Of a stretch of DNA of 64,000 bases, positions 1,985 through 54,057 are shown piece by piece. The DNA lies in assembly GCF_000430785.1 (NCBI RefSeq), contig NZ_KE387246.1:1-64000 (forward strand). Direction: 5' to 3'. The position numbers and the translations under genes were made by a program. The notes below the pieces were generated by a model, which was not told where the DNA came from, searched no databases, and saw only the letters and a program-made list of their open reading frames with translations. The stretch's first letter is position 1; every line of letters begins with the position of its first letter. Origin of the DNA: Ectobacillus panaciterrae DSM 19096. Lineage in GTDB: Bacteria; Bacillota; Bacilli; Bacillales; Bacillaceae_G.

Positions 1985-2187
1985 TATATATAAATGCAAC
2001 TAAAAAAATTGACATAAAAACTTTTCTTCTAGGGGGGAGAGAGCATCCGACTAAGCATAGAAGCGGTCAAACCCTTTTCGTGGTCCATGCAGGGAGAGAG
2101 AGGGAGCGAGCGAGCGAGCGCAGTTTCCCTTTTGTTCTACGTGGCAAACGACAGATATGTCGGAATAATAAAGCGGACTTATATAAA
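1985..2187 (-). repeat. MITE-like interspersed repeat, copy A (subfamily 1)
   Basis: Read on the minus strand this matches 45716-45912 along almost its whole length. Shared blocks include AGAACAAAAGGGAAACTGCG, CCACGAAAAGGGTTTGACCG and TTTTTTAGTTGCATTTATAT. The ends carry imperfect inverted repeats beginning TATATAA and reaching a GACAT motif. It contains no plausible gene. It fills most of the 374-bp gap before the next gene and has a GAGC(GAGC)n expansion (GGAGCGAGCGAGCGAGCG) that copy D lacks. Confidence 0.8.
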
Positions 2188-14004: not shown

Positions 14005-14192
14005 TATATATATGAGTGAATGATAATTTCGACATTTCCATGTGCTATGTGCAACCAAAAGGGAGTATGGTATGCTTCTTCTCTCTGGTTTACCCTTTCA
14101 TGAACCACTACAAAGGTTTAACCGCTTCTGCACGCCGCCGGATGATCTCTCCCCACTATATAAAAAGATGGTTTTTTATTCACTTGTATATA
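14005..14192 (+). repeat. MITE-like interspersed repeat, copy B (subfamily 2)
   Basis: Ends are imperfect inverted repeats, TATATATGAGTGAAT on the left and ATTCACTTGTATATA on the right. The interior is nearly identical to 33213-33397 (shared blocks AAAAGGGAGTATGGTATGCT and GGATGATCTCTCCCC) and shares a core with copies A and D. It lies in the 400-bp gap between the patatin gene and the transporter. Reading frames inside it look fortuitous. The rest of that gap, 13853-14004, holds nothing I can identify. Confidence 0.8.
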
Positions 14193-23890: not shown

Positions 23891-24180
23891 AACAAGCCCT
23901 CCTTGCTTGAGGAGTTGTTATTAGTGTACGACAGCGGACAGATAATTAAGCCTGCAAGAATTTGTTAACAAATTGTTATATAAAATGCGGCAAAAGTATG
24001 GATAAAAAGGATGGAGAATTCCATCCTTGAAACATAAGGAAACCTTCTTGCCGCAAAAGCGAGCATAATTTTTTCGATAGTTTTCGTAAACTGGAAAATT
24101 TTATGAAGATTCTCGTCTTTTTCATGAAATGCCTGTTTTCCTCATACATTGTTGTAACAGGGAAAAAAGGGGGCAAACGT

Positions 24181-25599
24181 GTGAAAGCGGAAGATTACAA
24201 AGTGCTGGAGTATGCAATTGACGAAATTACGGAGATCGCGAAGGGATTCGGTCTTGATTTTTATCCGATGCGTTATGAAATTTGTCCTGCAGATATTATC
24301 TATACATTTGGTGCGTATGGCATGCCGACACGATTTTCGCACTGGAGCTTCGGAAAACAATTTTACAAGATGAAACTGCATTACGATTTAGGATTAAGCA
24401 AAATTTATGAACTTGTTATTAATTCGGATCCGTGCTATGCATTTTTGCTGGAAACGAACTCATTAATTCAAAACAAGCTTATCGTAGCACATGTATTGGC
24501 ACATTGTGATTTCTTTAAAAATAACACTCGCTTTGGCAACACCAAACGCGATATGGTCGAAAGTATGGCTGCAACAGCGGACCGGGTCAAGCATTATGAA
24601 CATAAATACGGCAAGGAAGCAGTCGAAAAATTCTTGGATGCTGTGCTTGCCATTCAAGAACACATCGATCCGTCTTTAATGAGACCGAAGCTGGCATGGA
24701 CGCTGGAAGAGCTGGAGGAGGAAGAAACAGAAACAAAAGCATCAAGTCCATACGATGATTTGTGGAACTTGGATAAACGAAGTAAAAAACAAGAATCGCA
24801 GCCGATTCGCCGCAAAAAGAAATTTCCGCCGCAGCCTGAGAAAGATATTCTATTATTTATTGAGGAGTACAGCCGTGAACTTGAAGAGTGGCAGCGCGAT
24901 ATTTTAACCATGATGCGGGAAGAAATGCTGTACTTTTGGCCGCAGCTGGAAACAAAGATTATGAACGAAGGCTGGGCAAGTTACTGGCATCAGCGCATCT
25001 TGCGCGAAATGGATTTAACGAGCGAGGAAGCTGTTGAGTTCGCAAAGCTGAACGCAGGCGTCGTCCAGCCGTCGAAAACAAGCATCAACCCGTACTATCT
25101 CGGACTGAAAGTGTTTGAAGATATCGAAGAGCGTTATAACAACCCCACAGAGGAGATGAAGCGAGACGGTGTAAAACCTGGATCGGGACGCGAGAGAATG
25201 TTTGAGGTGCGCGAAATTGAGTCGGATATTTCTTTCCTGCGCAACTATTTGAACAAGGATCTTGTCATGCGTGAGGATATGTATCTCTTCCAGAAGCAAG
25301 GCAAAGATTATAAAATTGTCGACAAACGCTGGGAGAAGGTGCGGGATCAGCTCGTAAATATGCGTGTCAACGGCGGCTTTCCGTACATTACAGTAAACGA
25401 CGGAGACTATTTAAAGAACGGAGAGCTGTATTTGAAGCATTGGTTTGAGGGAATTGAGCTTGATGTGAAGTATTTGGAGAAGGTTATACCGTATATGCAG
25501 CAGCTTTGGGGACGTTCCGTGCATCTGGAAACAGTGGTTGAAAACAAGGCTGTGCTGTTTACGTTTGATGGAAAGATGTCACATCGGAAGTATTTGTAG
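24181..25599 (+). CDS. spoVR: stage V sporulation protein SpoVR
   Basis: SpoVR-family protein needed for normal spore cortex formation in B. subtilis; biochemical role unclear. The GTG at 24181, 7 bp after AAGGGGG, gives 472 residues, close to the family length; the longer frame starts 26 codons earlier with a hydrophobic stretch and no ribosome binding site. Conserved segments include FGMPT-like [14 protein letters not shown], the AHCDFFKNN segment and NEGWASYWH near the middle. A terminator follows directly. A decayed copy of its last 230 bp lies 200 bp downstream. Confidence 0.93.
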
Positions 25600-25603
25600 A
25601 GTA

Positions 25604-25633
25604 AAACCACCAGGGAAGCCTGGTGGTTTTTAG
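25604..25633 (+). terminator. terminator after spoVR
   Basis: Stem AAAACCACCAGG/CCTGGTGGTTTT followed by TAGATTG. Confidence 0.82.
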
Positions 25634-25797
25634 ATTGATTTTTTTAGGATTGCCTTCTTTTTCTGCCCCTCTAAAGACGTTCTTGTTGTCATAATTACAC
25701 CAATAATTACGAGAGCTCCTCCAAACAATTGGGAGAAGGTTAAAGGGGCGCCCATCATTACACTGATCAGTGCTGTAAAAAACATTCAATAACTGGG
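25630..25797 (-). pseudogene. C-terminal relic of an EamA/DMT transporter
   Basis: On the minus strand, one frame reads FFTALISVMMGAPLTF, SQLFGGALVIIGVIMTTR and a polar tail to a stop at 25630, typical of the last two helices of an EamA transporter. A few codons upstream the frame shifts (APVI in another frame) and the rest of the gene is missing, replaced by the spoVR relic. No start remains. Confidence 0.7.
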
Positions 25798-26000
25798 GCA
25801 AGTTGCGAGATCAGCTCGTAAACATGCGTGTCAACGGCGGAGACTATTTGAAGAACAGGGGACGTATTGGAAATATTGGTCCGAGGGAATCAAACTCAAT
25901 GTGAAGTATTTGAAGAAGGTCATGCTATATACAGCAACTTTGAGATGTTCTTTGCATATGAAAATAGTGGTTGAGAATAAGGCTGTTTTGTTTACGTCTG
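25798..26000 (+). pseudogene. decayed duplicate of the spoVR 3' end
   Basis: Strong nucleotide similarity to the last 230 bp of spoVR, for example GATCAGCTCGTAAA, ATGCGTGTCAACGGCGG, GAGACTATTT and TGTGAAGTATTTG. Relative to spoVR it has a 27-bp deletion after GTCAACGGCGG, further small indels and an early frame break, so it cannot encode protein. It is fused to the EamA relic at its 5' side and ends in a hairpin near 26016-26040. Confidence 0.8.
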
Positions 26001-33212: not shown

Positions 33213-33397
33213 TATATACGAATGAATTATAAATTCGACATTTCCATGTGCTATGTGCAATCAAAAGGGAGTATGGTATGCTTCCTTTCTCTGGTTTACC
33301 CTTGCATGAACCACTACAAAGATTTGACCGCTTCTGCACGTCGCCGGATGATCTCTCCCCCCTATAAAAAGACGGTTTTTTTATTCACTTATATATA
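33213..33397 (+). repeat. MITE-like interspersed repeat, copy C (subfamily 2)
   Basis: Nearly identical to 14005-14192 inside (AAAAGGGAGTATGGTATGCT; GGATGATCTCTCCCC; AAAAAGACGGTTTTTTT). Ends TATATACGAATGAAT and ATTCACTTATATATA form the inverted repeat. It fills most of the 320-bp gap between the convergent murP and arsB genes. Confidence 0.82.
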
Positions 33398-37690: not shown

Positions 37691-37894
37691 TTATTTTTGG
37701 TAACCGCCTAATTGTGACTCAGCCATTGCTACAAGGCGTTTTGTAATCTCTCCGCCTACAGAACCGTTTGCGCGTGCAGTTGCTTCTGCTCCAAGGTTTA
37801 CCCCAAATTCAGAAGCAATTTCATACTTCATAGAATCCAGTGCAGATTGTGCACCGGGCACTGCTAATTTGTTAGAAGAATTTTGATTTGGCAT
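37691..37894 (-). CDS. alpha/beta small acid-soluble spore protein
   Basis: A 67-residue SASP that coats spore DNA and is degraded at germination. The GPR cleavage site region [10 protein letters not shown] and the C-terminal [19 protein letters not shown] are the family signatures. AGGAGG precedes the ATG. It is divergent from a second SASP gene; both have CATACTATGAGTAC promoter boxes. Confidence 0.96.
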
Positions 37895-38155: not shown

Positions 38156-38353
38156 ATGGCACGTAGCACAAACCAATTGGCAGTATCTGGCGCACAATCT
38201 GCGTTAGACCAAATGAAGTATGAAATCGCTTCTGAGTTCGGCGTAACCCTTGGACCAGACGCTACATCTCGCGCTAACGGTTCTGTTGGCGGTGAAATCA
38301 CTAAGCGCCTTGTATCTATGGCTGAGTCACAATTAGGTGGATTTCAACGATAA
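38156..38353 (+). CDS. alpha/beta small acid-soluble spore protein
   Basis: A 65-residue SASP closely similar to the divergent neighbour ([10 protein letters not shown] and [19 protein letters not shown]). TAAGGAGG precedes the ATG and a terminator follows. Having the two genes divergent suggests an inverted duplication. Confidence 0.96.
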
Positions 38354-44868: not shown

Positions 44869-44984
44869 ATTCTGGGAGCCTTCGAGGCGCTGCCATCCAA
44901 GAACCTCCGCCACAAAAAGGCAAAAAACGCTTTTTAGGGCGGAGAACTTTGGTCTCTGCGTCTCGAAGGCTCCGCTTTTCTTAT
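44869..44984 (+). repeat. long-hairpin repeat, copy 2
   Basis: Arms GGAGCCTTCGAGG and the closing TCTCGAAGGCTCC pair; inner pairs CCAAG/CTTTGG, CCTCCGCC/GGGCGGAG and AAAAAGGC/GCTTTTT follow. It ends CCGCTTTTCT like the other units. It may serve as terminator for yheA and the convergent glycosylase gene. Confidence 0.85.
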
Positions 44985-45595
44985 TTTGATACATAGGGAT
45001 GACCTTGAAAATAGAAGCGCCATGGATAGTGGATGGCTTCTTCTGCGTAATCGATATTAATGCGCGGGCCTGCTGCAATGTCATATGTCTGAGATAGATG
45101 CTGCTCCGGAAAAACCGTTTCTACATATAACTCATCACCAAGCAAGGAAAGTCCTCTTTGCTTCATCGTAATATCCATCGCGCGGCACAACTTGCCTGGT
45201 CCATTGGTCACGTTGCGAAGCTGTTGTTTTGTAACTTCTATTTTTCCGTATCGGGATAACAGCATGTCCTCGAGTCCCTCAACAGGTTCTAAAGCTCGAA
45301 TCAGTACTCCTTGGGGTAAGCCGGCCGGGGCTGTAATAATGTTAAAGCAATAATACATTCCGTAAATGAAGTAGACATAAGCGTGCCCAGGCGGTCCATA
45401 CATCACTTCTGTACGCTCTGTCCGTCTGCCTCCATAGCTGTGGGCTGCTTTGTCATCAGGACCTTTATAAGCTTCGACTTCTACGATGATTCCGCTTCGT
45501 TTTTTTTCGTCAACCACATGTACAAGCTTGTGACCGAGCAAACGTTTTGCAACGTCGAGAGTGTCTCCTTCATATAAAGATAATGGCCATTTCAT
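44981..45595 (-). CDS. DNA-3-methyladenine glycosylase (AAG family)
   Basis: A 204-residue alkylpurine glycosylase that removes 3-methyladenine and related lesions in base-excision repair. AAG segments [47 protein letters not shown] and GPGKLCRAM are seen. B. subtilis YxlJ belongs here. The start ATG lies behind AGAAGGGAATGATC. Confidence 0.93.
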
Positions 45596-45715: not shown

Positions 45716-45912
45716 TATATAAGTCCACTTTGTTATTCCGACATATCTATCGTTCGCCACATAGAACAAAAGGGAAACTGCGCTCGCTCCCTCTTTATGC
45801 TTTACCCCTGCATGGGCCACGAAAAGGGTTTGACCGCTTCTACGCTTAGCCCGATGATCTCTCCCCCTAAAAGAAAAGTTTTATGTCGATTTTTTTAGTT
45901 GCATTTATATAG
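45716..45912 (+). repeat. MITE-like interspersed repeat, copy D (subfamily 1)
   Basis: Nearly identical to copy A read in reverse. Shared blocks include AAGTCC...CTTTGTTATTCCGACATATCT, AGAACAAAAGGGAAACTGCG and CCACGAAAAGGGTTTGACCG. It ends in TTTTTTAGTTGCATTTATATA. Most of the 573-bp gap before galE is this element and its neighbour. Confidence 0.82.
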
Positions 45913-45914
45913 AT

Positions 45915-45956
45915 TGTGATGGAACTGTCGAAATTATAATTCACTCATATATAGAT
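45915..45956 (-). repeat. end fragment of a subfamily-2 repeat
   Basis: On the minus strand, CTATATATGAGTGAATTATA then ATTTCGACAGTTCCAT matches the left end of copies B and C. It abuts copy D in the opposite orientation. Confidence 0.7.
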
Positions 45957-46168
45957 AAATATAGAGGAGAGAGCTGTGGATAAATTTATAAGCTCTTTTC
46001 ATCAGTTTCTGAGTAATAATGATACAAAGGTCCAGATCATTAAAAGTAGTGACATTACATGAACTTTTTTGAAAAAGTACAAGAAAAGCGGTACACTTAA
46101 TTACATTGATAAATGAGCCAAATATTTTACATAAGAAATATGCCATACTTTATAAAGGAGGAACTATT

Positions 46169-47176
46169 ATGACGATTTTGGTAACAGGGGGAGCAGGGTA
46201 TATCGGCAGTCACGCCGTTCTTTTGCTCAAGGAAAAAGGTGAGAAGGTTGTTGTATTGGACAACCTGCAAAAAGGCCATCGCGCTGCGGCGCTGGACGTG
46301 CCCTTATATGAAGGAGATATTCGTGATGAGACGGTACTGGATCGGATTTTTACGGAGAATAAAATCGATGCTGTTATCCACTTTGCCGCTAATTCTTTAG
46401 TGGGAGAAAGCATGGAGCAGCCGCTTGCTTATTATGATAACAATGTGATTGGCAGCTATCATCTTGTAAAGAAAATGGTAGAGTATGATATAAAAAAAAT
46501 TGTATTTTCTTCCACTGCCGCTGTATATGGCAATCCAGTCAATATTCCGATTTTAGAAAATGATCCGACGATACCGACAAACGTATATGGTGAAACGAAG
46601 CTGGCAATTGAAAAGCTGCTGCGCTGGATGGATGGAGCGCATGGGTTGAAATCCGTTTGCCTACGTTACTTCAACGCCGCAGGTGCCGATCCAGAAGGCA
46701 AAATCGGTGAAGATCACACACCGGAATCTCACTTGATACCGATTGTATTGCAGGCTGCGCTTGGACAGCGGGAAAAGGTGATGATTTTCGGTGATGATTA
46801 TCCAACTGAAGACGGCACGTGCATTCGCGACTATATCCATGTTATGGACCTGGCAGAAGCTCATTATCTCGCTCTTCAATATTTGGATAAAACAGAGACA
46901 AGCAACATTTTCAATCTAGGAAATGGAACAGGATTCTCTGTAAAGGAAGTAATCGCGACTTGCCGAACTGTTACAAATGTTTCCATTGTTGCAGAGACAG
47001 CGTCACGACGTGCAGGAGACCCTGCTGTATTGATTGCAACTTCAGAGAAGGCGCAGCGCGTTCTTGGATGGAAGCCGAAATATGGATCTTTGGAAACGAT
47101 TATCAAGCATGCATGGAATTGGCATGTTCATCATCCGAACGGCTATAGCATGAAGAAGGATGAAGCGGGAGAGTAG
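46169..47176 (+). CDS. galE: UDP-glucose 4-epimerase GalE
   Basis: A 335-residue NAD-dependent SDR epimerase that interconverts UDP-glucose and UDP-galactose. The GGAGYIGSH cofactor motif is at residues 7-15, the catalytic Tyr-Lys pair lies near 140-144 (YGETK) and SSTAAVYG provides the Ser. ATG 46169 follows AAAGGAGG. Together with PgcA it supplies UDP-sugars to wall polymers. A weak hairpin follows at 47193-47220. Confidence 0.95.
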   Translation: MTILVTGGAGYIGSHAVLLLKEKGEKVVVLDNLQKGHRAAALDVPLYEGDIRDETVLDRIFTENKIDAVIHFAANSLVGESMEQPLAYYDNNVIGSYHLVKKMVEYDIKKIVFSSTAAVYGNPVNIPILENDPTIPTNVYGETKLAIEKLLRWMDGAHGLKSVCLRYFNAAGADPEGKIGEDHTPESHLIPIVLQAALGQREKVMIFGDDYPTEDGTCIRDYIHVMDLAEAHYLALQYLDKTETSNIFNLGNGTGFSVKEVIATCRTVTNVSIVAETASRRAGDPAVLIATSEKAQRVLGWKPKYGSLETIIKHAWNWHVHHPNGYSMKKDEAGE

Positions 47177-49776: not shown

Positions 49777-49807
49777 AAAGGCTGCCGGCTTGCCGGCGGC
49801 TTTTTTT
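49777..49807 (+). terminator. terminator after hemZ
   Basis: Stem GCTGCCGGC/GCCGGCGGC followed by T7. Confidence 0.85.
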
Positions 49808-49877
49808 GATGTCTAGCTCCACCGGCAAGGCGCTGCCACCAGAGAACCTGGGCGGGCCGGTTCCGCTTTTCGTGATA
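49808..49877 (+). repeat. long-hairpin repeat, copy 3 (internally deleted)
   Basis: TGTCTAGCTCCACCGGCAAG, GCGCTGCCACCAGAGAACC, then directly GGGCCGGTTCCGCTTTTCGTG. The internal arms are lost but the outer pair CACCGGC/GGCCGGT remains. Confidence 0.82.
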
Positions 49878-53644: not shown

Positions 53645-53668
53645 GGAGCCTGCTGGCTCCTTATTTCT
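53643..53668 (+). terminator. terminator after the yhaR-like gene
   Basis: Stem AAGGAGCC/GGCTCCTT with loop TGCT. Confidence 0.85.
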
Positions 53669-53669
53669 A

Positions 53670-54057
53670 TTGTTCTGCGCCTGAACGAGCCGGTTCCGCT
53701 TTTCGTGATGTCTAGCTCCACCGGCTAGGTGCTGCCACCAGAGAACCTCGCCCACACAAAAGCAAAAAGCGCTTTTGAGGGGCGAGAACCTCTGGTTCTG
53801 CGCCTGAGCGAGCCGGTTCCGCTTTTCGTGATGTCCAGCTCCACCGGCTAGGTGCTGCCACCAGAGAACCTCGCCCACACAAAAGCAAAAAGCGCTTTTG
53901 AGGGGCGAGAACCTCTCCGATTCCGCTTTTCTTGTGTCTAGCTCCATCGGCCAGCTCCCAACGCCAAAATAACCTTCCCCATACAAAGCCAAAAAGCGGC
54001 TTTGATGGTGAAGAACATTTTGACGAGGGAGCTAAGCGGGCCGATTCCGCTTTTCTA
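53670..54057 (+). repeat. tandem cluster of long-hairpin repeat (three units plus a partial)
   Basis: A right-end fragment (53670-53710), then units at 53711-53833 (complete), 53834-53934 (right arm truncated) and 53937-54057 (diverged). In the first unit CACCGGCT/AGCCGGT, AGGTGC/GCGCCT, CCAGAG/CTCTGG, CCTCGCCC/GGGGCGAG and AAAAGC/GCTTTT build one extended hairpin. The third unit changes both strands of several arms, for example TCGGCC/GGCCGA and AGCTCCC/GGGAGCT, so pairing is preserved. No coding content. Confidence 0.9.

Follow-up and report, generated by a model that had tools for sequence, protein, structure and literature searches.

The closest known kind of repeat to the one considered here is RUP, from S. 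pneumoniae: an intergenic element of 107 bp that has ends like those of IS630-Spn1, its proposed mobilizer, and that inserts at TA (PMC2229807); about 108–110 copies are reported (PMC2229807, PMC3049150). For most bacterial MITEs besides RUP, no matching IS was known at the time of review (PMC2229807). The Correia/NEMIS elements of Neisseria are MITEs of ~100–200 bp with a 24-bp terminal inverted repeat (TIR), TA termini and related sub-forms (PMC2229807), and ERIC is a high-copy intergenic MITE of 127 bp, with a terminal TA and a 7-bp TIR (PMC2229807), that reaches up to 711 copies in Photorhabdus luminescens (PMC10969869). Among the Bacillaceae, bcr1–bcr18 are interspersed repeats of 100–400 bp, reported from the B. 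cereus group alone and in association with a TTTAT motif, several types having copies on plasmids (PMC6542083).

The family described here was noticed in a stretch of 64,000 nucleotides from Ectobacillus panaciterrae DSM 19096 (contig NZ_KE387246.1, positions 1 to 64,000; hereafter, the window). Likened by description, it shares with RUP its short, non-coding, intergenic character, IS630-like TIRs and insertion at TA, and differs in its length of about 185–200 bp, its ~380 copies and its two end types. It differs from Correia/NEMIS in host and in having matching IS630 ends in the same genus, and from ERIC in element and TIR length and in its unrelated host; because ERIC reaches 711 copies, ~380 is high but no record. 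The IS630/Tc1-mariner insertion sequences of Ectobacillus have the same TATATA-N17-CGACAT ends and also insert at TA, but they encode a transposase, whereas the window repeats do not. In the literature searched, we came upon no repeat family described from Ectobacillus. Our reading, which we hold with high confidence, is that the repeats are MITEs moved in trans by IS630/Tc1-family transposases and inserted at TA, with a core that comes from a common ancestor.

Copies in the window

The copies, their ends and the core are located as follows.

1987–2185, minus strand: copy A, subfamily 1 MITE, 90% identical to copy D; TATATA-N17-CGACAT end at 2157–2185
14007–14192, plus strand: copy B, subfamily 2 MITE, 95.7% identical to the subfamily 2 consensus; left end TATATATGAGTGAATGATAATTTCGACAT at 14007–14035
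33213–33397, plus strand: copy C, subfamily 2 MITE, 95.1% identical to the subfamily 2 consensus; left end TATATACGAATGAATTATAAATTCGACAT at 33213–33241
45716–45911, plus strand: copy D, subfamily 1 MITE, with TATATA-N17-CGACAT at both ends
45716–45744, plus strand: left TIR of copy D, TATATAAGTCCACTTTGTTATTCCGACAT, the outermost TA being the presumed duplicated target
45786–45876, plus strand: core common to both subfamilies, in copy D, with the CCAC block, TTTGACCGCTTCT and GATCTCTCCCC, as placed by repeat family D3 and the 71-copy alignment
45883–45911, minus strand: right TIR of copy D, TATATAAATGCAACTAAAAAAATCGACAT
45919–45953, minus strand: solo left end, subfamily 2, lying 7 bp past copy D and matching positions 1–35 of the subfamily 2 consensus at 97% identity

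Copy A lies between a CBS-domain-like gene (1444–1863) and a gene at 2275, and copy D between divergent genes (44981–45595, minus strand, and 46106–47176, plus strand). An earlier note had placed both copies correctly to within 1–2 bp and had called them almost identical; the close likeness stands, and the wording is slightly too strong for an identity of 90.3% over 195 aligned positions (local score 273, versus 25 for the best of 200 shuffles). Copies B and C are 92.4% identical. Between the subfamilies identity is 76–78%, and the score of copy D against copy C, 89, is far above shuffles (at most 26), which bears out the proposal of a core common to both. The repeat families found in the window agree with this picture. 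In a scan of copies A and D, the number of predicted promoters was near chance, and a terminator-like match within the element was found in copy D only.

The window holds other repetition as well. A GC-rich 123-bp direct repeat (AGCTCCACCGGCTAGGTGCTGCC...), 97% identical in tandem at 53667–53912, recurs at 49799–49876 and in more diverged copies, and is another interspersed repeat family. Two similar small genes of opposite orientation (37691–37894 and 38156–38353; 67 and 65 aa), whose products we take to resemble alpha/beta small acid-soluble spore proteins, give rise to a 185-nt inverted repeat. At 25329–25931, the end of a 498-aa gene (24103–25599), presumably SpoVR-like, is repeated just downstream at ~78–90% identity and lacks an open frame of equal size; this is a duplicated gene remnant.

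Abundance and anatomy

The draft genome of the organism (5,411,691 bases, 189 contigs) contains 381 matches to the core pattern GGTTTGACCGCTTCTRC with at most two mismatches, 195 forward and 186 reverse, as against 2 for the reversed control; the count takes in partial copies that contain the core. At ~190 bp apiece, some 380 copies account for about 72 kb (~1.3%) of the 5.41-Mb genome. With copies D and C as queries, at least 40 genome matches each were obtained, almost all of them full-length or nearly so. Among 100 exact core matches listed, 28 have the base of subfamily 1 (A after CGCTTCT) and 72 that of subfamily 2. With ORFs as proxies for genes, the copies are dispersed, mostly intergenic, in all orientations relative to their neighbours and free of strand bias.

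When 30 copies per subfamily were aligned with their flanks (~60 loci), the ends proved sharp and the flanks unrelated. Subfamily 1 extends from TATATAAGTCCACTTTGTTATTCCGACAT to ATGTCGATTTTTTTAGTTGCATTTATATA and subfamily 2 from TATATATGAGTGAATTATAATTTCGACAT to CGGTTTTTTTATTCACTTGTATATA. The elements are thus short and non-coding, with precise ends and imperfect TIRs of 29 bp, of the form TATATA-N17-CGACAT; at the right end of subfamily 2 it is degenerate, with CGTCTT in place of CGACAT. In the genome as a whole, this 12-base pattern was counted 318 times (control 2), and tandem copies have TA, TATA or TATATA in common at their junction. A third repeat, only ~63 bp long, has TATATA at its ends and contains CGACA motifs (TATATATCCTAAATGAATTTTCGACAAAATCCATGTCGAACTTATAAATCGTATTTATATA); it occurs at several places in the genome, among them L119 (~1127–1189), L121 (~746–808) and L122 (~1103–1165), and looks like a minimal MITE with the same end type.

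Relatives and previously named repeats

Among congeners, the end pattern is found 43 times in Ectobacillus antri SYSU K30001 (genome G001; control 2) and 11 times in genome G003 (control 0), with 0–4 occurrences elsewhere. The E. antri and G003 elements are ~160–187 bp long and have the same ends as the window family; their interior, strongly diverged in E. antri, is homologous to that of subfamily 1 and runs in the same direction (z of 6.2 for the alignment versus shuffles; 3.6 for subfamily 2). E. antri apparently has a further MITE type, a 143-bp element with IS630-III-type ends (TATATATAACTGATTAGTTTTTTCGACAT) at positions 207–349 of locus L110 (G001:C41).

Consensus DNA searches of relatives and family gave no match outside the organism's own genome and also missed the diverged E. 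antri element. Neither subfamily was matched in 396 other genomes of the order, in a shallow search that scored two candidates per genome and again missed E. antri, and subfamily 1 had no match among 72,556 records of plasmids and 50,697 of phages. Since the searches were shallow and passed over a homologue that exists, the close copies are species-specific as far as searched, and distant homologues may be more widespread. The family seems to have been amplified within the species of the window. Ten IMG/VR pattern matches, considered as possible viral carriage, align across only 15–22 nt, as chance would produce.

These results bear on whether the family is a bcr-type repeat or some other previously named one. 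Size and copy number are in a similar range, and the host belongs to the Bacillaceae; its genus, however, is Ectobacillus, outside the B. cereus group. The bcr repeats are reported to be tied to TTTAT and to that group, and several bcr types to have plasmid copies (PMC6542083), whereas the window family inserts at TA and subfamily 1 has no match in the plasmid records searched. The absence of matches to either subfamily in the shallow search of the order weighs on the same side. On these descriptions the two are set apart, and we regard the identification as having almost no chance of being right. The match to a known repeat that, on the earlier note's terms, would have counted against its reading was not found in Rfam, plasmids or phages.

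Insertion at TA

For each of eight E. antri copies, the two flanks were put together as one sequence and searched for in G003. The empty sites pertain to the E. antri homologue and not to the window copies, for which none was seen at base resolution. Three sites were recovered. At the first, E. antri has CTCCTTC–(TATATA..TATATA)– GTTATAAC and G003 has CTCCTTTTAGTTATAAC (in shorter display, CCTTTTAGTTATAAC). At the second, TTTACACAC –(TATATA..TATATA)– GAAAATTC, with ACAC as the short left flank, corresponds to CAACATACTAGAAAATTC (in shorter display, ACTAGAAAATTC), and at the third GGAA–(TATATA..TATATA)–GTACGC corresponds to AATGTAGTACGC. In each case G003 has a single TA in place of the E. antri element. 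Among the eight loci, L100 carries an element in both genomes, and the alignment to G003 is poor at two others.

A related observation comes from the organism's own genome, where, across 80 full copies, C precedes the element in 48 and G follows it in 37, where the background frequencies are 17% and 18%; this excess indicates CTAG-like targets. The E. antri empty sites and this context together supply the target-site evidence for a MITE. The spacer orthologous to that holding copy B is ~243 bp shorter in G001 and G003, consistent with absence of the element there. An IS630-III copy in locus L071 has a site of this kind too, CAAC-TA-GATC, within an open frame that it interrupts. As judged from these sequences, the window family inserts at TA, preferably CTAG, as IS630 elements do.

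IS630 transposases and their ends

Matches to DDE_3 (PF13358, IS630) were found at three places in the organism's own genome, all of them fragments, and once each in G001, G002 and G003; Pfam searches of the separate frames confirmed DDE_3 and HTH_32/HTH_33. The 189 contigs of the draft yielded no intact IS630 transposase gene. Because only fragments are present, the driver may have been lost, may be unassembled or may be a different element. In E. antri, several contigs end in N-terminal IS630-II pieces that share 93–100% identity with the G003 copy; presumably the element is multi-copy there and interrupts the assembly. The transposase genes at L151, L152 and L070 are each read in two frames that overlap close to a run of A, which suggests programmed frameshifting rather than decay.

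Ends of the TATATA-N17-CGACAT type adjoin IS630 remnants at two loci of the organism's own genome (L069, TATATATAAGTGATTTAGTTTTTCGACAT; L071, TATATATAACTGACTTGTCTTTTCGACAT), and the same form adjoins IS630 transposase at L152 in G003 and at L107–L109, which are E. antri contig ends. The ends of the repeats match those of IS630-family elements in the same genome or genus. The left end of subfamily 2 agrees with IS630-II ends at 24 of 29 positions, and its older form at 25. Subfamily 1 ends fit the IS630 pattern but agree at only 17–20 of 29 positions; their best IS630 counterpart, the L151 element of G002, starts like them (TATATAAGTC), its 17/29 agreement residing mainly in the first 9–10 bp. 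Subfamilies 1 and 2 may rely on two different IS630 lineages. As the earlier note had it, the repeats are MITE-like: TIRs, TA insertion, empty sites, intergenic scatter and IS630-type ends all say so.

A mechanism of this kind would have an IS630/Tc1-family transposase recognize the ~29-bp ends and excise the MITE, which would then be inserted at TA, preferably within CTAG, with duplication of the TA. From the character of the ends, IS630 transposases acting in trans would be the actual driver.

What the conserved core means

The alignment of 71 copies shows a core that is nearly invariant and ends that are specific to each subfamily. The core therefore does not fall to chance levels as copies are added, and the view of a modular element, with differing ends on one core, is upheld. 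The two kinds of end on one core are real and parallel the two IS630 end types.

One account of such a pattern is that the core is conserved for its fold, as part of a structured RNA, whether a regulatory leader or a small RNA. Between subfamilies the core is indeed better conserved than the ends, and the minus-strand interior consensus folds with a z of about −3.5 (subfamily 1) to −4 (both subfamilies) relative to column shuffles. The stem in question, however, varies almost only between GC and GU, compensatory change being nearly absent, and the signal falls to −0.3 kcal/mol once the E. antri homologues are included. When the consensus is folded as a single strand, z is only −0.1 to −2.1 across both strands, and the consensus fold of the 71 copies, −4 kcal/mol, consists mostly of the TIRs; across all of these folds, no conserved covarying structure was found. 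Rfam gives no gathering-level match at the copies, orientation to neighbouring genes is inconsistent, and transposition alone accounts for the TIRs and the TA insertion. Given the weak fold scores, the lack of an Rfam match and the loss of the minus-strand signal with the E. antri homologues, the earlier suggestion of an RNA element selected for structure is not supported, and we consider a structured RNA highly improbable. The window repeat is most likely one moved by IS630 transposases rather than a conserved RNA.

Under transposition by IS630 transposases, the core of both subfamilies would have been inherited from one ancestral MITE, the ends having diverged or been exchanged. Exchanged ends could have been swapped by recombination or could have diverged in step with their transposases, and the data fit either. 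A refinement of the MITE reading would make the core a functional module under selection (for example, a transposition enhancer or a host-factor site), the ends being exchanged to follow different IS630 transposases. That one core bears two end types is in keeping with this, as are the older copies L045 and L060 of the 71-copy alignment, which combine subfamily-2-like ends with a subfamily-1-like interior, the fused mosaic L136, in which two elements are joined within the core, and the homology of the E. antri interior. The same pattern would nonetheless arise if the elements shared an ancestor and their ends simply diverged faster, and the E. antri interior is strongly diverged, so that we think a selected module unlikely, though worth keeping in mind.

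Biological significance

The repeats are a real and abundant MITE family of IS630 type, of a kind already known, and notable for its copy number and the divergence of its ends. A high-copy family of this type is thereby added to Ectobacillus. For a bacterial MITE it is well documented: its ends match those of insertion sequences of the genus, the TA empty sites are clean, and a sister species has a diverged homologue. The family also cautions that conserved blocks in intergenic repeats are not necessarily RNA structures. It further offers a case for how MITEs outlive or change their transposase partners. It is conceivable, at rather long odds, that this is a MITE lineage which has kept its interior while its ends switched between two IS630 specificities, a selected core outliving each partner in turn, with ~380 copies standing beside mere remnants of the partner.
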